This document shows positions 9,626 through 33,655 of a stretch of DNA of 33,655 nt, piece after piece. The position numbers and the translations under genes were made by a program. Below the pieces are notes generated by a model, which was given only the letters and a program-made list of their open reading frames with translations, was not told the origin of the DNA and made no database searches. The stretch comes from Desulfobacterales bacterium (lineage in GTDB: Bacteria > Desulfobacterota > Desulfobacteria > Desulfobacterales > JAUYIZ01): NCBI GenBank assembly GCA_030688615.1, contig JAUYIZ010000310.1, forward strand, positions 1 to 33,655, written 5' to 3'. The number at the start of each line of letters is the position of its first letter. Position 1 is the stretch's first letter.

Positions 9626-9743
9626 TGCTGTGCTTCGCTCGCCGCTGTACACCTTTTTGGGCTGTACAGCCGCCTCGACCACGGTCCCTCTTCTTTGGGT
9701 TGAAGGTACCGTGGTCGAGGCGTACGGCTCACGAAGCACAGCA
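9626..9743. repeat. three-way-junction inverted-repeat element
   Basis: Outer stem 9626-9637/9732-9743 (tgctgtgcttcg/cgaagcacagca, 12 bp), arm 1 9644-9651/9663-9670 (gctgtaca/tgtacagc), arm 2 9671-9685/9708-9722 (cgcctcgaccacggt/accgtggtcgaggcg, 15 bp), all perfect. Confidence 0.9.
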
Positions 9744-9775: not shown

Positions 9776-9824
9776 ATGAAACGAAGTCGTTAATTAAGGG
9801 GTGTTTTTGCCCAATACTATGAAG
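9776..9824 (+). promoter_or_regulatory. duplicated conjugation-operon leader motif, copy 1
   Basis: ATGAAACGAAGTCGTTAATTAAGGGGTGTTTTTGCCCAATACTATGAAG; about 42/49 identical to copy 2 at 29805. Confidence 0.75.
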
Positions 9825-9897
9825 AGAAAAACTCAAAATCCAAAACCCAATCTTAAAACTTGGGGTGATAAATGGTCTTAAAGCCAGGAGATGAAAG

Positions 9898-10308
9898 ATG
9901 AAAACAATCGACGTCAGTCAAAGCCGGAACATGATCCAAGCTATTAGATTTAATTTGGCTGGGATGATTGCAGGACTTGGTATTTCGATCCAAAGAGGAA
10001 TAAGTCTTGGATTTGTGCTCTTTTTGGCACTGTCCACTCTTTCTCTCTTGAATTTAGGTGCCGACAAGCTGGAAGCATCTTTTAAAGATGTGTTTGTGGT
10101 GACGAAAAACGAAGCACGTAATCCGGTGGTCGCAGCGAGTTCAGTGAATGTGCGGCCGGCGGTTATTTATCAGAAGCCGCAAGTGAAGATGATTGCGACT
10201 GAAAATCGAGTGCCGCCCAGAGATGTGAGCAGAACGATCCGGGAATCCGGTTATTTCCTGAACGCGATCGAGTCGTTTACCCGGTCGCTTGGTCGATTTG
10301 CCCAATGA
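9898..10308 (+). CDS. hypothetical membrane-anchored protein at head of conjugation block 1
   Basis: 136 aa; hydrophobic segment 'GISLGFVLFLALSTLSLLNLG'; SD 'ggagatgaaag'. Confidence 0.65.
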   Translation: MKTIDVSQSRNMIQAIRFNLAGMIAGLGISIQRGISLGFVLFLALSTLSLLNLGADKLEASFKDVFVVTKNEARNPVVAASSVNVRPAVIYQKPQVKMIATENRVPPRDVSRTIRESGYFLNAIESFTRSLGRFAQ

Positions 10309-10317
10309 TCTCGTTAA

Positions 10318-10347
10318 AAGGGACGGAGGGATTTGCCTCCGTTCCTT
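10318..10347. terminator. intercistronic hairpin
   Basis: aagggacggagg / cctccgttcctt, 12-bp stem with one G-T pair; no long U tract. Confidence 0.6.
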
Positions 10348-10383
10348 CGCTGGGCATGAACTCTCGTAGAACGGGGAAGATGC

Positions 10384-11112
10384 ATGGATGAAAGCAAAGG
10401 GACGGAAGTAGAACAGCCGGTCGTTCTCAACGAGCGGGATATTGAAATCTTCAGACTGATTCATGAGCACCGGTACGCGGCGCACAGCCATCTCAAGATG
10501 GCGTTTTGGACGGATAATTCGGAAGAAGCCAACGCTTGTTACCGGCGGATTGAAAAGCTCACGAGGGCGGAATATTTGCGGAAAGGTTATTCGAGAAAGA
10601 AGAACCTGAACCTTTATCTGCTTACGGAAAAGGGCCTTGATGAGCTTCGCCGGCGGAATCTCGATGCAGGGATGCGCCTCTATGCGGAAGGGCCGTATTT
10701 CGACCGGTACATCGATCACGACCTGAAAGTCATGACGGTACGGCTTATTTTCGGACTCATGGGGCTCAAGGAATGGACAGGCGAGCGGTCGCTGAAAGAG
10801 CGCGGCGGGCTCAACCGCGTTCCAGATGGCATCCTGTCCATTCATGGTCGAAAAATCGCCATCGAGTTCGAAAACTACATTACCAAGGGACGGAAACGCT
10901 ATACGGACCTCTTCGACTTTTACAAGAGCAGCCCGGAATATGACCTGGTATTCATGATTCTCGATGGCGACACCAAGGACTGGCTTGTGGGGCTCGAATA
11001 TGATGCCCAGCAGCTGTGGTTCATCACGTATGAAGATTTTATTCAGAAGAGGGAAGAGGCCCTGCTCGAAAATAAAAGAGCGAGCTTCGTTCTGAACAGG
11101 ATCCTTCCATGA
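10384..11112 (+). CDS. replication-relaxation-like protein (wHTH plus nuclease-like C-terminus)
   Basis: 'LNERDIEIFRLIHEHRYAAHSHLKMAFW...RRIEKLTRAEYLRKGY...YLLTEKGLDELRRR' and 'VPDGILSIHGRKIAIEFENY', the Replic_Relax (PF13814)-like pattern. Confidence 0.7.
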   Translation: MDESKGTEVEQPVVLNERDIEIFRLIHEHRYAAHSHLKMAFWTDNSEEANACYRRIEKLTRAEYLRKGYSRKKNLNLYLLTEKGLDELRRRNLDAGMRLYAEGPYFDRYIDHDLKVMTVRLIFGLMGLKEWTGERSLKERGGLNRVPDGILSIHGRKIAIEFENYITKGRKRYTDLFDFYKSSPEYDLVFMILDGDTKDWLVGLEYDAQQLWFITYEDFIQKREEALLENKRASFVLNRILP

Positions 11113-11115
11113 GCC

Positions 11116-12972
11116 ATGACGAAGACAGCGGACCGACAGGAATCGCTTCTGGTCAAGGTCCTGGGATGGATTTTTGCGGCAATTCCCTTAGCGTTAGCTA
11201 ATGGACTGATCGAATTTCTTGCCAAAAGATCAGGGGCCCGGGCCAAGTGCTGGGCATTGGCCGGCCTTTGCGCCGCATCTCTCGGCTTAATCGGTATTAC
11301 CCGGTGGCTGAGTCATTATCTATCGGCCTTTGACTCAAACGCAGGCTATCCTGCAGAGCTTCTTGGCTTCAAGGTACTTCTTTTCTATCTCGCCTATGTG
11401 GTTATCCTCATGCCCGTTTTTATCCTGATCGCTTATTTCATACGCCAGGGCCGGGAGGGGATGTTCAAGCGGGCTGACATGAGGAAGACACCCAATCCTC
11501 TGAGAATGCGGAGAAACCGCCTCATCGCGGGTCGAAAACGGGCCTACCTGGGCGAGAGTTTTCACACCGGCCGCCCGCTTTATCTGACCAACGATCAACG
11601 GCTGATGCATGCAGAAGTTGTCGGCTCCACGGGAACAGGGAAAACAGAATCAGTTCTCTTGCCGCTGCTTGCCCAGGACCTGGCCCAGCGGAAGGGTGCC
11701 ATCATTATCGATGGAAAGGGGGATTTGGAGCTCCTGGACAGGATCCAATATATCGTCCTCGAGAAGAAACGAGAAAAGGACTTCTATTTCTTCTCCTTGG
11801 CGCATCCTGAGAAATCGCATAGTTACAATCCGCTTCTCCGGGGCAATGCCACCGAGCTCAAAGACAAGATCATCGGGAGCATGCCATGGAGTGAAGAGTT
11901 TTACCGGCGTATGGCCGAGCAGGCCTGTTTAACGCTCCTGAACGTGCTTGTGGCACAGGGTGAGAAGGTCAAGTTCAAGGATCTCCATGAATACCTGACG
12001 AATCTGGACGCACTATCGAAGCTGGTAAAGCGGACGCAGGACGAGGGCTACAAGTCGGATTTGGGCAAGATGGTGAACCAATTCAAGAACAACCCTAAAT
12101 TCCTCTCCGGTCTGATGGCGGATCTCTTTCTCACCGCTCGCAGCGAGTTCTCAAAGCTTGTGGACGTGGATGATCCGGAAATCGATCTCCTTGATGTTTA
12201 TCAGAACAACCGCATCGTTTACTTCCAGCTGAACCTGCAGGGGTATGGGGATACTGCCAAAAGGATGGGACGGATGATCCTGCAGGACATCCGCACGGTA
12301 TCGAGTTATATCCAGTCCCATCTCCGGGAATACAAACGCCACTTCTTTCCAGTATTCGTGGACGATGCATCCAGTTTCCTGGACCTGAATTTCATTGATT
12401 TCCTGAATAAGGCAAGGGCAAGCGGTTTTGCCATTACGCTTCTGCATCAATCCCTTGGTGATCTCGTGATCCGACGCGATTTTGCCTTCCAGCAGCAAGT
12501 GATCGAAAACACCAATATCAAAATCATCCTGAGACAGGATGATCCCGAGTCCATCGAAAAATTCACTCGTATCGGCGGGACGCGGAAGACCATGATCTCG
12601 ACATACCAGACAGAAGACAGGTTTCTTGGAAAGGGATTTACCGGCGTGGGTTCGATCCGGGAGGGCCAGACCTTCCGGGTGGATCCCGATCTCATACGCA
12701 GTTTGAAACGGGGTGAGGCCGTCGTCATATGGAAAAGCCCGTCATTTCGGACGGATTATGTGAAGCTGGATTTCTTCGGCCATCCGGTTTTCAGGGGCGA
12801 GTACGAACCTATTCACAAGATAAAGCAAGTGGATCCGCCGGTTGAAAAAGTTGAAGCCGAGGATCAGCCGAAAACCGAGACGGTCAAAACAGATGATTTG
12901 CCGCCGGACATCGATGCGCCATTAGCGATTGTTCAAGATATCGAAAGGAAAGCCCGTGAGCTAAAGAAATAG
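11116..12972 (+). CDS. type IV secretion/conjugation coupling ATPase, VirD4/TraG/TraD-like
   Basis: N-terminal TM segments; Walker A 'GSTGTGKTESVLLPLLAQDLAQRKGAIIIDGKGD'; Walker B-like 'FFPVFVDDASSFL'; 'SGFAITLLHQSLGDL'. Confidence 0.9.
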   Translation: MTKTADRQESLLVKVLGWIFAAIPLALANGLIEFLAKRSGARAKCWALAGLCAASLGLIGITRWLSHYLSAFDSNAGYPAELLGFKVLLFYLAYVVILMPVFILIAYFIRQGREGMFKRADMRKTPNPLRMRRNRLIAGRKRAYLGESFHTGRPLYLTNDQRLMHAEVVGSTGTGKTESVLLPLLAQDLAQRKGAIIIDGKGDLELLDRIQYIVLEKKREKDFYFFSLAHPEKSHSYNPLLRGNATELKDKIIGSMPWSEEFYRRMAEQACLTLLNVLVAQGEKVKFKDLHEYLTNLDALSKLVKRTQDEGYKSDLGKMVNQFKNNPKFLSGLMADLFLTARSEFSKLVDVDDPEIDLLDVYQNNRIVYFQLNLQGYGDTAKRMGRMILQDIRTVSSYIQSHLREYKRHFFPVFVDDASSFLDLNFIDFLNKARASGFAITLLHQSLGDLVIRRDFAFQQQVIENTNIKIILRQDDPESIEKFTRIGGTRKTMISTYQTEDRFLGKGFTGVGSIREGQTFRVDPDLIRSLKRGEAVVIWKSPSFRTDYVKLDFFGHPVFRGEYEPIHKIKQVDPPVEKVEAEDQPKTETVKTDDLPPDIDAPLAIVQDIERKARELKK

Positions 12973-28781: not shown

Positions 28782-28809
28782 TTGACAGAATGAAAAATAT
28801 GTATAAAAT
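28782..28809 (+). promoter_or_regulatory. candidate sigma70-type promoter
   Basis: TTGACA-N16-TAAAAT. Confidence 0.6.
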
Positions 28810-28871
28810 AACAAGTAAATATCTTGTGGTGAGCGCGAGCCCACGGCGGTGAGCACGCCATTGACAGAACC

Positions 28872-29004
28872 TAAATAGGTTGTAGCGAGATCCATACGGG
28901 GATTCTCATCAACTCCTTTAACCACATTGCCGTGTGTGGTCTGGCTCAAACACGGCGATCCGGGGGATCTCCATTTAATCCGCACGCTACGACCTGAGTA
29001 TTTA
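28872..29004 (+). ncRNA. candidate structured RNA/leader
   Basis: Nested stems 28877-28887/28985-28995 (11 bp, one GU), 28887-28893/28965-28971, 28929-28935/28950-28956; downstream of promoter and upstream of terminator at 29151. Confidence 0.5.
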
Positions 29005-29150
29005 AACCCACCTCAACAATCCAAAAACGAGACCTAGCTAAGCAATCCCAAGGGGTATTTTTCTAATTCCCTCCACGGGAGCAGTGTCTCTACTGATTTC
29101 ACCACCCTAAAAATTTCTTTTTTTTGTTTCTGGTTATGACCAGATCAATG

Positions 29151-29178
29151 CGGACGATTCGTCGGATCGTCCGTTTTT
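29151..29178 (+). terminator. rho-independent terminator-like hairpin
   Basis: cggacgat-tcgtcgg-atcgtccg followed by tttttg. Confidence 0.75.
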
Positions 29179-29214
29179 GTTTTCAGTCCTCGCGCGGCGG
29201 AATGCGAGGACAAA

Positions 29215-29808
29215 ATGAAAACAAAAAAGAATAGAAACACATCGAATAACAAGCCAAGAACCAGAGTGCGGACCGTTGATTTTATGAGAATTGAGGGGAC
29301 GGTGAATAATCAACCATTGAGCACCTTTGAACTCGACGTCCGCGAGAAGTTAGCAGTATCAGCATCGCCGCTGAACTTTATGATCCAGCAAGAAGACGAA
29401 GCCTTGAGAGATGAGCAGCGTCATGAAGCAAAGCAAACACTCAAGGAACTTCTCAAGGCCGCGCACCTTACGCGGAAACAGTTATGGTGCTACAGACTCG
29501 TTTTCAGGGAAGGCCGAACCATCCGTGATACCGCATTGCTGATGAAGGTCTCAGATGCGCGGATTTGCACCATGGTCGAAGGGATCAAAACCACCTTGAA
29601 GAGAACGGCGGCAAAGCTGGAAAACGGTCAGATGCTCTTTGAGCGTATTTCAGAAATGCCGCTTGAGGCGTGGGAAAAGCAGCTTTGCGATCTCAGACTT
29701 CGCAAAGGATTGTCGCTGAGGCGTATCGCTGCGGTCATGGGAATCAGTTGGCCCACTGTGCACAGGCGGGTAAAAGCCATTCTCGGCAGGCTGGTGGTTG
29801 AGGAATGA
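29215..29808 (+). CDS. sigma-70 region-4-like double-HTH regulator
   Basis: 'LTRKQLWCYRLVFREGRTIRDTALLMKVSDARICTMVEGIKTTLKR' and 'LRKGLSLRRIAAVMGISWPTVHRRVKAIL'. Confidence 0.75.
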   Translation: MKTKKNRNTSNNKPRTRVRTVDFMRIEGTVNNQPLSTFELDVREKLAVSASPLNFMIQQEDEALRDEQRHEAKQTLKELLKAAHLTRKQLWCYRLVFREGRTIRDTALLMKVSDARICTMVEGIKTTLKRTAAKLENGQMLFERISEMPLEAWEKQLCDLRLRKGLSLRRIAAVMGISWPTVHRRVKAILGRLVVEE

Positions 29809-29853
29809 AACGAACCCGTTAATTACGGGCGGTTTTTGACCAATACTATGGAG
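29805..29853 (+). promoter_or_regulatory. duplicated conjugation-operon leader motif, copy 2
   Basis: ATGAAACGAACCCGTTAATTACGGGCGGTTTTTGACCAATACTATGGAG; see copy 1 at 9776. Confidence 0.75.
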
Positions 29854-29939
29854 GAGGGTACGCGATGCACCAAACGGCGGGGCAAACGAAGCCCGGCTAA
29901 ATGCGTCAAACGGCCCTCCTTCCCAGTCGAGGAGGATAA

Positions 29940-30254
29940 ATGAATCAGAGAGTCCGGAATTTATTCATCACAGCAGGCAGTATCTGGATGACCTTGTTTT
30001 GGTTCGCCAGTGTTGCTTGGGCACAAGCTGCATCTGAGGAAGATCTCCGTTTTTTTCTGGAACGGGTTGGAGATTTCCTTATCCGGACGGTTGGCCCCGG
30101 GGTTCTCGTAATCGGTATGGCAGTTGCCGGGGTATCCATGGCTCTGGGAGATGAACAGGGAATGAGGCGGGGAGCGATTGCCGCAGGTGGCGGAGCCCTG
30201 ATCATGCTCTCCAGGGCCATCCTCGATCTTATTCAGAACGTAACCCATTTTTAA
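29940..30254 (+). CDS. VirB2/TrbC-like pilin
   Basis: Signal peptide ('FASVAWAQA'), two hydrophobic helices, Gly/Ala-rich; precedes VirB3/VirB4-like genes. Confidence 0.75.
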   Translation: MNQRVRNLFITAGSIWMTLFWFASVAWAQAASEEDLRFFLERVGDFLIRTVGPGVLVIGMAVAGVSMALGDEQGMRRGAIAAGGGALIMLSRAILDLIQNVTHF

Positions 30255-30263
30255 GGAGAAGCG

Positions 30264-30548
30264 GTGAGAAACGCAAAAGGATACAGAAAAATTCATGCCC
30301 GGAACAAGCTTTTTGGTCTGGAGTTCCCGGATTTGATGATTCTGCTTTTGGTTTATCTTTTTGTGTTTATGTTCTCGAAGAACCTGTTTTTGAATCTGCT
30401 GATCTTGTTGGGGCTTTATCTCTTTCTCACTTTCTACAAAAAAGGGAAACCGCCGCATTGGACCGAGTCCTGGATCCGGTTTCTGATGACAAATCGAAAT
30501 TATCGGGCCGCGAGAGAAGCTGAAAAGGAGATCTTTGATGACAAGTAG
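30264..30548 (+). CDS. VirB3/TrbD-like membrane protein
   Basis: 94 aa with two TM segments, immediately upstream of VirB4. Confidence 0.65.
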   Translation: MRNAKGYRKIHARNKLFGLEFPDLMILLLVYLFVFMFSKNLFLNLLILLGLYLFLTFYKKGKPPHWTESWIRFLMTNRNYRAAREAEKEIFDDK

Positions 30549-33063
30549 TCTGCTGCTTAAGACGCGGGATCTTTTACGTGGCGAGAAACAGATGCCCTTC
30601 TTTAAATTAATCGATCTCTATTCCGTCGAAGATGGGATCGCCGTGGGTGTTTCCGGTGCGATGGGATTGGGCTATCGATTCCGGGGGAGGGACCTGCTCC
30701 TACAAAATGATGCTGAGATCGAGTCTTTTGAAGTCAGGCTGCGGCGTTTCCTTAACCGTATGCCGGAGGGGGCAATGCTGCATTTTGTTGTTTCTTCGGA
30801 TAAGGCGGGAAAGGAGGCCGTTCAGGAAATCCTTCCCCGGGTACCGGTCGAAGAGAAATTGGCATCCAGAATTATTCAGGAAAAAGAGCATTTTTATCAA
30901 AAACACCCCTTCATTCAGAGAAACGTTTTTCTTTTTATTGTCATCAGCCCGCAGGGGAAAAGGGATCGCTCGTCATTCCTGCCTGATTTCAGTGCCGCAT
31001 TCGGGAAAAAAGCCAGACGATTGAGCCGGCTTGAATTCCAATCCTGTAAACAAGCGCTGGAACGAGTTGCGTCTGAGATAGCGGATGGATTTCGGAGTCT
31101 TGGTTTTTCACTCGAATTGCTGAATGACGATGATCTGTTGCGGTATCTCTACCAAATACTGAATCCGGATTATTCCGAGCACACCATACCGTTCAGCCCC
31201 TATTTTATGAAAAAAGGGACTGCTCATCCCGAACGGTCGTCGCTTAGAACCAGACTCCTGCTATCGGCGCCTTTGGTGGAAGACCGCTTTCTTTATCTCA
31301 ATCGCTATTTTCATAAGGCGGTCAATCTTGTGGAGCTTCCCGAGGAAACAACCTTGAAGTCGCTGAAGGATTTCGAGTCCGCCCTGGGCGAGGATTACCT
31401 TATGACAATGTCCATCGGCATTCCCGATCAGGAAAAGGAGAAAGGAAAAATCAAACGGCAGTTGAACTATACGAAGGCAAAGAGTTTCTTTTCCCGAAGC
31501 AAAGATCATGAAGCCATCGCCCGTGCCGGTGAAACCGACGAACTTTTGGGGACCATCGCAGAATCATCAGATCGATTCTTTCATTTTTCATTGGCGGTCG
31601 TGCTTAGGGCAAAGAGCCAGGAAAAGCTGGATAAGCGAATCCGGGAAGCGGTGCGGGCGTTTACGAGAATGGGGGATGCGCGTGGGATTGATGACCGATT
31701 GAATCATGACCGGCTTTTTCTTTCTTTTTTACCGCTTCAAGGCGACATGAACCCTCTTTCCTTTCTGATACGCTCAGAAGTTCTGGCCCACTTGCTTCCC
31801 GTACAGGCAAATTGGCAGGGTACCGAGAAACCGGGAGTCGTGCTGAAAACATACCGCAATGAGCCCCTGAAGCTTGATCTCTTCGATTCGAATCTGCAAG
31901 CCAAGCACTCGCTTATGCTCGGGACAACGGGATCGGGAAAGTCGTTTTTTACAAATCAACTTCTCCTGAGCTTCCTCACAGGCTCCCGCGACCAGGACGT
32001 GATCGTGATCGATCTGGGTGGAAGCTACCGGAGACTCGCGTCGTTAATAGGGGGATCCTATTTGGAAGTTGAATGCTCGGAGCGCTTTGCCTTTAATGTC
32101 TTTCCGCGTGCCGCAGTCCTTTTCCCGGAGGGGAAAGAAGCAGATGCTACATTTCTCCAATTCTTAAAAGAACTCCTTCGCAAAATGATAGCGCCCTCGA
32201 AGAACTGGTCCCCCAGTGAAAAAATGATTCTGGAACGGGCCATTCGCCAGGCTTATCAACCATTACGGCCAAATGAAGCACCTGTGTTGGGGGACATCGA
32301 GAGAGCTTTAAAGCAATTCTCGCAGGGGGATGATGAGGACCGGAAGAAAGCCTATCAATTCGCCAAAGAACTTTGCCTTTTTACCGAGGGCGAATATGGA
32401 AAGCTCCTGAACAGGCGAGGCTCCTTTGACATGGATGCCCGCTTTGTCGTCTTCGATCTGAGGAAAATCTCTCATTATCCCGAACTCCAGGAAATCCTGC
32501 TCATGATCATTCCTTTTGCGCTCAAACGTAAATTTGAAAATGTCGGTATCAAGAAACTCCTTGTTTTGGATGAATGCTGGCAGCTTTTAAAAGAATCGCA
32601 GGGGACGGAATTGGTCGAGGTGTTTTACCGGACGGCCCGGAAGATGAATGCGGCGGTTCTCTCGATATCACAGAACCCCGAGGATTTTCTCGACGCTACG
32701 ATATCGGCGGTCATGATCAATAACTCCCCGATTAAATATATTTTGCGACTCAAGAAAGGCCATGACCGGCTCGCAGCCTTTGGTTTCAATGAGAACGAGA
32801 TACAGGCGGTGCGCGAGCTGGACGGGAGGCAGGGCTTCTTTTCGGAAGTGTTTATCAAGTTCGATCAGGAAGGGGTTGTGGCCAAAGTGGAACCGACACC
32901 GCTCGAATACTGGATGGCGACAACAGACCCTCAGGATTCGGTGGAGGAGAAGAAGCTGCTGTCGATTCATCCGGGATTGACCCAACTGGAACTGTTAGAG
33001 CAACTGGCTGCCCGTTTCCCTAATGGCATAAGAACCGCAATGGAGTTGAGCGATGTGGGATGA
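30538..33063 (+). CDS. VirB4/TrbE/TraC-like conjugation ATPase
   Basis: Walker A 'LGTTGSGKSFFTNQLLLSFL', 'DVIVIDLGGSYRRLA', Walker B 'KLLVLDECWQLLKESQG', 'AVLSISQNPEDFL'. Confidence 0.92.
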   Translation: MTSSLLLKTRDLLRGEKQMPFFKLIDLYSVEDGIAVGVSGAMGLGYRFRGRDLLLQNDAEIESFEVRLRRFLNRMPEGAMLHFVVSSDKAGKEAVQEILPRVPVEEKLASRIIQEKEHFYQKHPFIQRNVFLFIVISPQGKRDRSSFLPDFSAAFGKKARRLSRLEFQSCKQALERVASEIADGFRSLGFSLELLNDDDLLRYLYQILNPDYSEHTIPFSPYFMKKGTAHPERSSLRTRLLLSAPLVEDRFLYLNRYFHKAVNLVELPEETTLKSLKDFESALGEDYLMTMSIGIPDQEKEKGKIKRQLNYTKAKSFFSRSKDHEAIARAGETDELLGTIAESSDRFFHFSLAVVLRAKSQEKLDKRIREAVRAFTRMGDARGIDDRLNHDRLFLSFLPLQGDMNPLSFLIRSEVLAHLLPVQANWQGTEKPGVVLKTYRNEPLKLDLFDSNLQAKHSLMLGTTGSGKSFFTNQLLLSFLTGSRDQDVIVIDLGGSYRRLASLIGGSYLEVECSERFAFNVFPRAAVLFPEGKEADATFLQFLKELLRKMIAPSKNWSPSEKMILERAIRQAYQPLRPNEAPVLGDIERALKQFSQGDDEDRKKAYQFAKELCLFTEGEYGKLLNRRGSFDMDARFVVFDLRKISHYPELQEILLMIIPFALKRKFENVGIKKLLVLDECWQLLKESQGTELVEVFYRTARKMNAAVLSISQNPEDFLDATISAVMINNSPIKYILRLKKGHDRLAAFGFNENEIQAVRELDGRQGFFSEVFIKFDQEGVVAKVEPTPLEYWMATTDPQDSVEEKKLLSIHPGLTQLELLEQLAARFPNGIRTAMELSDVG

Positions 33064-33151
33064 GGGATCTTGTGTGATGGCGGTGTTTTGTATGGTCATG
33101 ACACTATTCGCTTTGGCGGCATTTCTTATTTATGCCGCGAGGTATTTATGA
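33053..33151 (+). CDS. 32-aa single-TM small ORF between VirB4-like and VirB5-like genes
   Basis: MWDEGSCVMAVFCMVMTLFALAAFLIYAARYL*; overlaps VirB4 stop and (ATGA) the next ATG. Confidence 0.5.
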   Translation: MWDEGSCVMAVFCMVMTLFALAAFLIYAARYL

Positions 33152-33655
33152 AAAAGACAGCGATTCTATTTGTCCTTGTGCTTTTGATGCTCTGCCCGCT
33201 GAACCGCAAGGCTCATGCGGCGCTGCCGACCTTCGATGCGGTCAATGCCGCTCTGAGTGAATTGAGGAATGCGGTCATGCAATCACAATTTGCCCAGGAT
33301 ATTGCACTCGCAATGGAAAGGCTGAATCAGCTGAAATCGACTTATCAGGAGCTTCTCCGGTTCCATTCCGGCCTCGACGATTTGTTCGAAACCTGGGTCG
33401 GGGACCCCCTGCATCAATTCCTGAATGCGGGACAGGGCTTTCAGTTCACGTTTCCGGACTTCCCAGCGATATCGCCTCAAATCGATCTGATCCAAAATGC
33501 GCAAGGACCTTCAGATATTCGAAATGCTCTGGAAAATATAACGGGAAAGATCCCTCAAAGTGAAGCAAGACCTTACATCTTGTTCGAAGAAATGCAGGTA
33601 GTTGAGGGCCTGGACTTGGCTCAGAAGATTCGCCAATCGGGCGAGAACACCCGTG
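33148..33655 (+). CDS. VirB5/TrbJ-like protein, truncated by window end
   Basis: ATG at 33148 overlapping upstream TGA; signal peptide 'MKKTAILFVLVLLMLCPLNRKAHA' then helical 'MERLNQLKSTYQELLRFHSGLDDLF'; open to window end. Confidence 0.65.
   Translation, partial: MKKTAILFVLVLLMLCPLNRKAHAALPTFDAVNAALSELRNAVMQSQFAQDIALAMERLNQLKSTYQELLRFHSGLDDLFETWVGDPLHQFLNAGQGFQFTFPDFPAISPQIDLIQNAQGPSDIRNALENITGKIPQSEARPYILFEEMQVVEGLDLAQKIRQSGENTR

Follow-up and report, generated by a model that had tools for sequence, protein, structure and literature searches.

The window analysed here (33,655 nt, the entire contig C97 of the source assembly) carries two operons for conjugative transfer, each headed by a copy of the same 49-bp sequence. 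The features around the two copies are the following.

9626–9743, no strand assigned: branched inverted repeat, candidate oriT region (DNA fold −47.2 kcal/mol, z −9.8)
9776–9824, + strand: copy 1 of the 49-bp motif, heading the DNA-processing operon
9898–10308, + strand: first ORF of operon 1, 136 aa, no family match
10384–11112, + strand: MobC/Replic_Relax-type protein, candidate MOBC relaxase (Pfam PF13814 and PD-ExE-K pattern)
11116–12972, + strand: TraD/VirD4-type coupling protein (T4CP; TIGR03743, PF02534, PF10412, PF12696)
29215–29808, + strand: putative regulator, 197 aa, with two sigma-region-4-like HTH domains (PF04545, TIGR02937, FliA_WhiG)
29805–29853, + strand: copy 2 of the 49-bp motif, heading the mating-pore (virB) operon
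29940–30254, + strand: VirB2/TrbC-type pilin, first gene of operon 2 (PF04956, E 6.2e-10)
30264–30548, + strand: VirB3/TraL-like protein (PF05101, E 0.006, and TIGR02762, E 0.004, both below cut-off)
30535–33063, + strand: VirB4/TraC ATPase (TIGR02746, E 3.8e-81, below cut-off; PF19044, E 1.1e-37)
33148–33655, + strand: start of a gene in the VirB5 position (VirB5 by position only), continuing into contig C244 (L061)

In the operon behind copy 1, the protein encoded from 10384 matches PF13814 just above the cut-off (E 7.8e-6) and NF041423 far below it (E 3.6e-10), and it contains a PD-ExE-K pattern. Since MOBC relaxases are related to PD-(D/E)XK nucleases (PMC12857230), the family match and the pattern make this protein a candidate MOBC relaxase. 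The coupling protein exceeds the cut-offs of PF02534, PF10412, and PF12696, and its match to TIGR03743 (E 3.9e-34) stays below the cut-off. The branched inverted repeat lies between a zinc-ribbon-like ORF and copy 1, 32 bp upstream of the latter, and has a 12-bp outer stem that encloses two hairpins, one of them about 15 bp long. It is a candidate for the oriT of the element.

The operon behind copy 2 runs off the end of the window. The last 18 nt of the window (33638–33655) are the first 18 nt of contig C244 of the same genome, and an open frame of 253 aa that takes the virB5 position spans the junction. According to the Pfam searches, the next genes of C244 encode a weak VirB6 match, VirB8, VirB9/CagX, and VirB10/TrbI, and a tyrosine integrase appears later. 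The genes after the virB operon on C244 are those for OEP, a glycosyltransferase, HlyD, a YhcG-type nuclease, and the tyrosine integrase; no tRNA gene was found in the window or in C244. Together, the window and C244 hold the T4SS, coupling protein, candidate relaxase, and integrase expected of an ICE. The element is therefore probably one ICE that extends over at least two contigs, and the gene content and the contig join place the two copies of the motif at the heads of its DNA-processing and mating-pore operons.

The 49-bp repeat and its distribution

The preliminary description had pointed to two copies of the motif with about 42/49 identity, and this is borne out. Both copies lie on the + strand, 20,029 bp apart, and agree at 42 of the 49 positions (86%), while the number of pairs at or above this level expected in the window is about 8.5e-10 when each base matches with a probability of 25%. 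The second-best 49-mer in the window reaches just 29/49, a degenerate scan of the window recovers these two copies only, and 100 dinucleotide shuffles of the window gave no motif match. The seven differences are scattered along the motif. The match ends sharply on both sides, and the flanking sequence is unrelated between the copies. Within the motif, no direct repeat, inverted repeat, or palindrome rises above shuffled sequence. Because just two copies exist, the conserved columns are statistically indistinguishable from one another.

From the end of the motif to the ATG of the first structural gene we measured 73 nt at copy 1 (ATG at 9898) and 86 nt at copy 2 (ATG at 29940), so the earlier figure of roughly 80–90 bp was about right. 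The placement of both copies in intergenic DNA stands for copy 1 but only in part for copy 2, whose beginning shares bases with the TGA stop codon of the regulator gene (29806–29808). Further downstream, within 29850–29939 of the window, GGAGGAGGG, just after copy 2, and CCCTCCTTCC are able to pair; if left free, CCCTCCTTCC could pair instead with the Shine-Dalgarno sequence GAGGAGG of virB2. This possible switch is not conserved at copy 1.

The motif is confined to the element. Further copies, for which the preliminary description had proposed a scan of the full element, did not appear: a whole-genome search of the source assembly (4.78 Mb, 429 contigs) gave no third copy, and there is none in C244, the next contig of the element. 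Nor was the motif found in about 400 genomes spread over the phylum, where the weak matches sit within long ORFs. Matches in relatives to a 22-nt core with two mismatches were discarded, the rest of the motif being absent there. In the plasmid collection the motif matches stay at chance level with none close, the phage collection holds no motif match, and the searches of these two collections gave nothing else that was close.

VirB4 has no close homologue among 146 relatives from the order (the best other match has 28% identity) or among 391 genomes of the class. For the coupling protein, 396 genomes of the phylum and 372 of the order gave a single distant match (29%) and nothing close. For the regulator, the relatives gave two distant matches only; inspection of one of them showed a FliA-like gene within a flagellar cluster. 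Eleven distant T4SS loci contain no homologue of MobC, the coupling protein, or the regulator, and the strongest motif match across these loci falls inside an ORF. Among the relatives listed, none shares the genus or family of the source genome.

Promoter-like anatomy and the adjacent putative regulator gene

The features that bear on transcription are given below.

9815–9820, + strand: candidate −10 hexamer TACTAT in copy 1 (4/6 to TATAAT, consensus match only)
29844–29849, + strand: candidate −10 hexamer TACTAT in copy 2 (4/6 to TATAAT, identical in both copies)
28782–28809, + strand: sigma70-like promoter TTGACA-N16-TAAAAT (11/12), upstream of the regulator leader
29150–29174, + strand: intrinsic-terminator-like hairpin, 40 nt before the start codon of the regulator

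TACTAT occupies positions 40–45 of the motif. If it is taken as the −10 element, the conserved block spans about −51 to −3 and would fit a promoter; an activator and RNA polymerase would contact just this stretch, which supports the reading as a promoter box. No sigma70 −35/−10 pair in the two copies exceeds chance, and there is no good −35: the best score common to both copies is 7/12, a value reached by 72% of column shuffles. A −10 element that has no −35 partner but a long conserved stretch upstream would suit an activator-dependent promoter. The missing −35, however, would equally be seen in a sequence that is not a promoter. The ATG conserved after TACTAT, to which the preliminary description drew attention, is present in both copies but is probably not a start codon, as neither copy has a Shine-Dalgarno sequence. 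Sigma54 spacing and a resemblance to ops/JUMPstart or boxA were considered and rejected on inspection.

The gene directly upstream of copy 2 encodes the putative regulator. This protein matches PF04545 (E 5e-6), TIGR02937 in two stretches (E 1.8e-9), FliA_WhiG at residues 55–127 (E 4.1e-6), and sigma70/ECF region 4 at residues 146–194, and Pfam and NCBIfam profile searches gave no match to sigma region 2. With two region-4-like matches and region 2 missing, the protein as judged from its profile matches is by definition not a sigma factor. A single-sequence structure model shows two HTH-like units at modest confidence (mean pLDDT 63.5); many sigma region 4 domains appear among its fold matches, though none reaches E ≤ 0.001. 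Such a protein could act as an activator that binds close to the −35 region. It is the adjacency of its gene to copy 2, and this alone, that suggests binding to the box, so we propose it tentatively; the XRE proteins or the relaxase itself are other possible binders.

The promoter at 28782–28809 is the only 11/12 sigma70 match on either strand of the window. It is separated from the regulator gene by a structured leader of ~360 nt (z −3.1), the strong terminator-like hairpin, and another hairpin directly before the regulator ATG. The region 28782–29214 is possibly a site of attenuation or an sRNA gene.

We consider the 49-bp repeat to be a shared promoter/activator box of an ICE, with a probability of roughly 60%. 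The shared strand, the similar spacing to the genes, the position at the heads of two transfer operons, the sharp edges, and the adjacent putative regulator gene all point to a common transcriptional input, which is the part of the regulatory input proposed in the preliminary description that we retain. According to this model, the duplicated, activator-dependent box would put the operon at 9898–12972 and the operon from 29940 (virB2-B3-B4-B5-like-B6-B8-B9-B10) under one control. TACTAT would act as the −10 element, and transcription would start about 6–7 nt later, near 9827 and 29856. The conserved bases at the expected −35 location would form the activator site, from which the activator would contact RNA polymerase in a class II geometry, and the effect would be activation rather than repression. 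The likeliest activator would be the tandem sigma-region-4-like HTH protein of 29215–29808, made from its own sigma70-like promoter through the structured leader. Dimeric regulators usually leave an internal repeat in their site, and its absence from the motif counts against this model, as does the modest 4/6 match of the −10 hexamer. A bolder version is that a protein with two sigma-region-4-like domains and no region 2 represents a new kind of master activator, one that reads an asymmetric and unusually long box of ~49 bp, switches both operons, and has its own synthesis gated by a terminator leader; this version is doubtful.

Alternative explanations

The same positions suit repression equally well. 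The 49 bp might be a repressor operator or autoregulatory site through which a relaxosome protein, the MobC-type relaxase, or an XRE protein keeps both operons off until induction. At 49 bp and 86% identity, the repeat exceeds the usual length of a single repressor operator, which counts against this explanation, as does the lack of internal symmetry. Relaxosome proteins can control their own promoters, as in pIP501, where the relaxase TraA binds the tra promoter overlapping oriT (PMC4981023). Copy 1, 32 bp past the possible oriT, would be suitably placed for such control, but copy 2 has no comparable inverted repeat beside it and adjoins the regulator gene instead. A repressor site is conceivable but unlikely. 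If the box were a promoter for a host alternative sigma factor, for example of the FliA/WhiG kind, no element-encoded activator would be needed. The FliA-type consensus used for scoring is TAAA-N15-GCCGATAA, and both copies carry TAAT-N15-NCCAATAC at the same place, matching it at 8 of 12 positions; this arrangement, however, is scored equally by 11% of column shuffles. The 29215 protein does contain a FliA-like region 4, but the motif is absent elsewhere in the host genome and the conserved block runs 15 bp further upstream than this −35. We regard a promoter of this kind as quite improbable.

The repeat might instead act in RNA, as a leader peptide, a terminator/antiterminator, or a loading site for antitermination, the last of which the preliminary description had listed among its possible signals. 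In copy 2, CCCGT/ACGGG stands before a T run, and the leader has a better fold than shuffled sequence (z −3.55). In copy 1 the same stem is broken with no compensation, the fold of the leader is no better than that of shuffles (z +0.56), and the two leaders fold unlike each other, so antitermination is the part of the earlier proposal that we do not keep. In both copies ATGAAACGAAnnCGTTAA encodes MKR[S/T]R-stop, but no Shine-Dalgarno sequence lies at a proper distance before either ATG. Rfam gave no match at the gathering score and only chance-level ones below it. Because the stem is not kept, the fold of copy 1 is ordinary, Rfam is silent, and a usable Shine-Dalgarno sequence is lacking, a conserved hairpin, leader peptide, or antitermination signal is unsupported, and a conserved RNA signal is highly unlikely. 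Finally, the copies are direct repeats that flank 20 kb including cargo-like genes, as expected if they were paired recombination sites or a scar left when the intervening DNA was inserted. The seven scattered differences leave no identical core, and there are no internal inverted arms, which makes recombination sites very improbable indeed. In addition, the intervening segment contains the coupling protein and the candidate relaxase, copy 2 lies exactly between the regulator gene and virB2, and the distance to the operon that follows is similar for the two copies.

Relation to known transfer regulons

The shared promoter/activator box resembles several known systems. In an IncC plasmid, AcaCD sites precede traL, traV, traN, and traI, with a class II geometry and 17 major binding peaks (PMC4207636). 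As in the AcaCD system of IncC (IncA/C) plasmids, a shared box here stands before more than one transfer operon, those with the mating-pore and relaxase genes among them, and the master activator is encoded by the element, although here it is a candidate, and the class II geometry reported there is one that we infer. AcaCD is an FlhDC-like complex with 17 peaks, whereas here there are two copies and a sigma-4-like HTH candidate. ICEclc is reported to carry a 27-bp motif in eight of its nine transfer promoters, under the regulator BisDC (PMC9286271). Like our element, it is an ICE with one motif common to transfer promoters and found nowhere else on the element; unlike it, the box here has 49 bp and two sites. 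The control site of pIP501 (PMC4981023) also lies beside oriT (a candidate oriT here) at the head of a transfer operon, but it is a single site overlapping the oriT inverted repeats, whereas here the inverted repeat does not include the box, and a second operon carries another copy of it.

The same motif thus stands upstream of two transfer operons of one element, as in the AcaCD and BisDC kind of system. No FlhDC-like regulator was found among the proteins scanned, which comprise part of the ORFs, whereas a sigma-4-like HTH protein is present. Since the scanned proteins include no FlhDC-like regulator and the activator role is our proposal from sequence, we assign the box to neither the AcaCD nor the BisDC kind.

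In general, the box is real, probably regulatory, and ordinary in kind: control of several transfer operons through one box is already known, this 49-bp sequence is new, and the type of its regulator is possibly new. If our interpretation is right, it identifies the point at which an uncharacterised ICE from a sparsely sampled lineage of bacteria is controlled, and it offers a searchable 49-bp signature for the transfer regulon of this ICE. It would also suggest the tandem sigma-4-like HTH protein as a type of regulator for transfer control.
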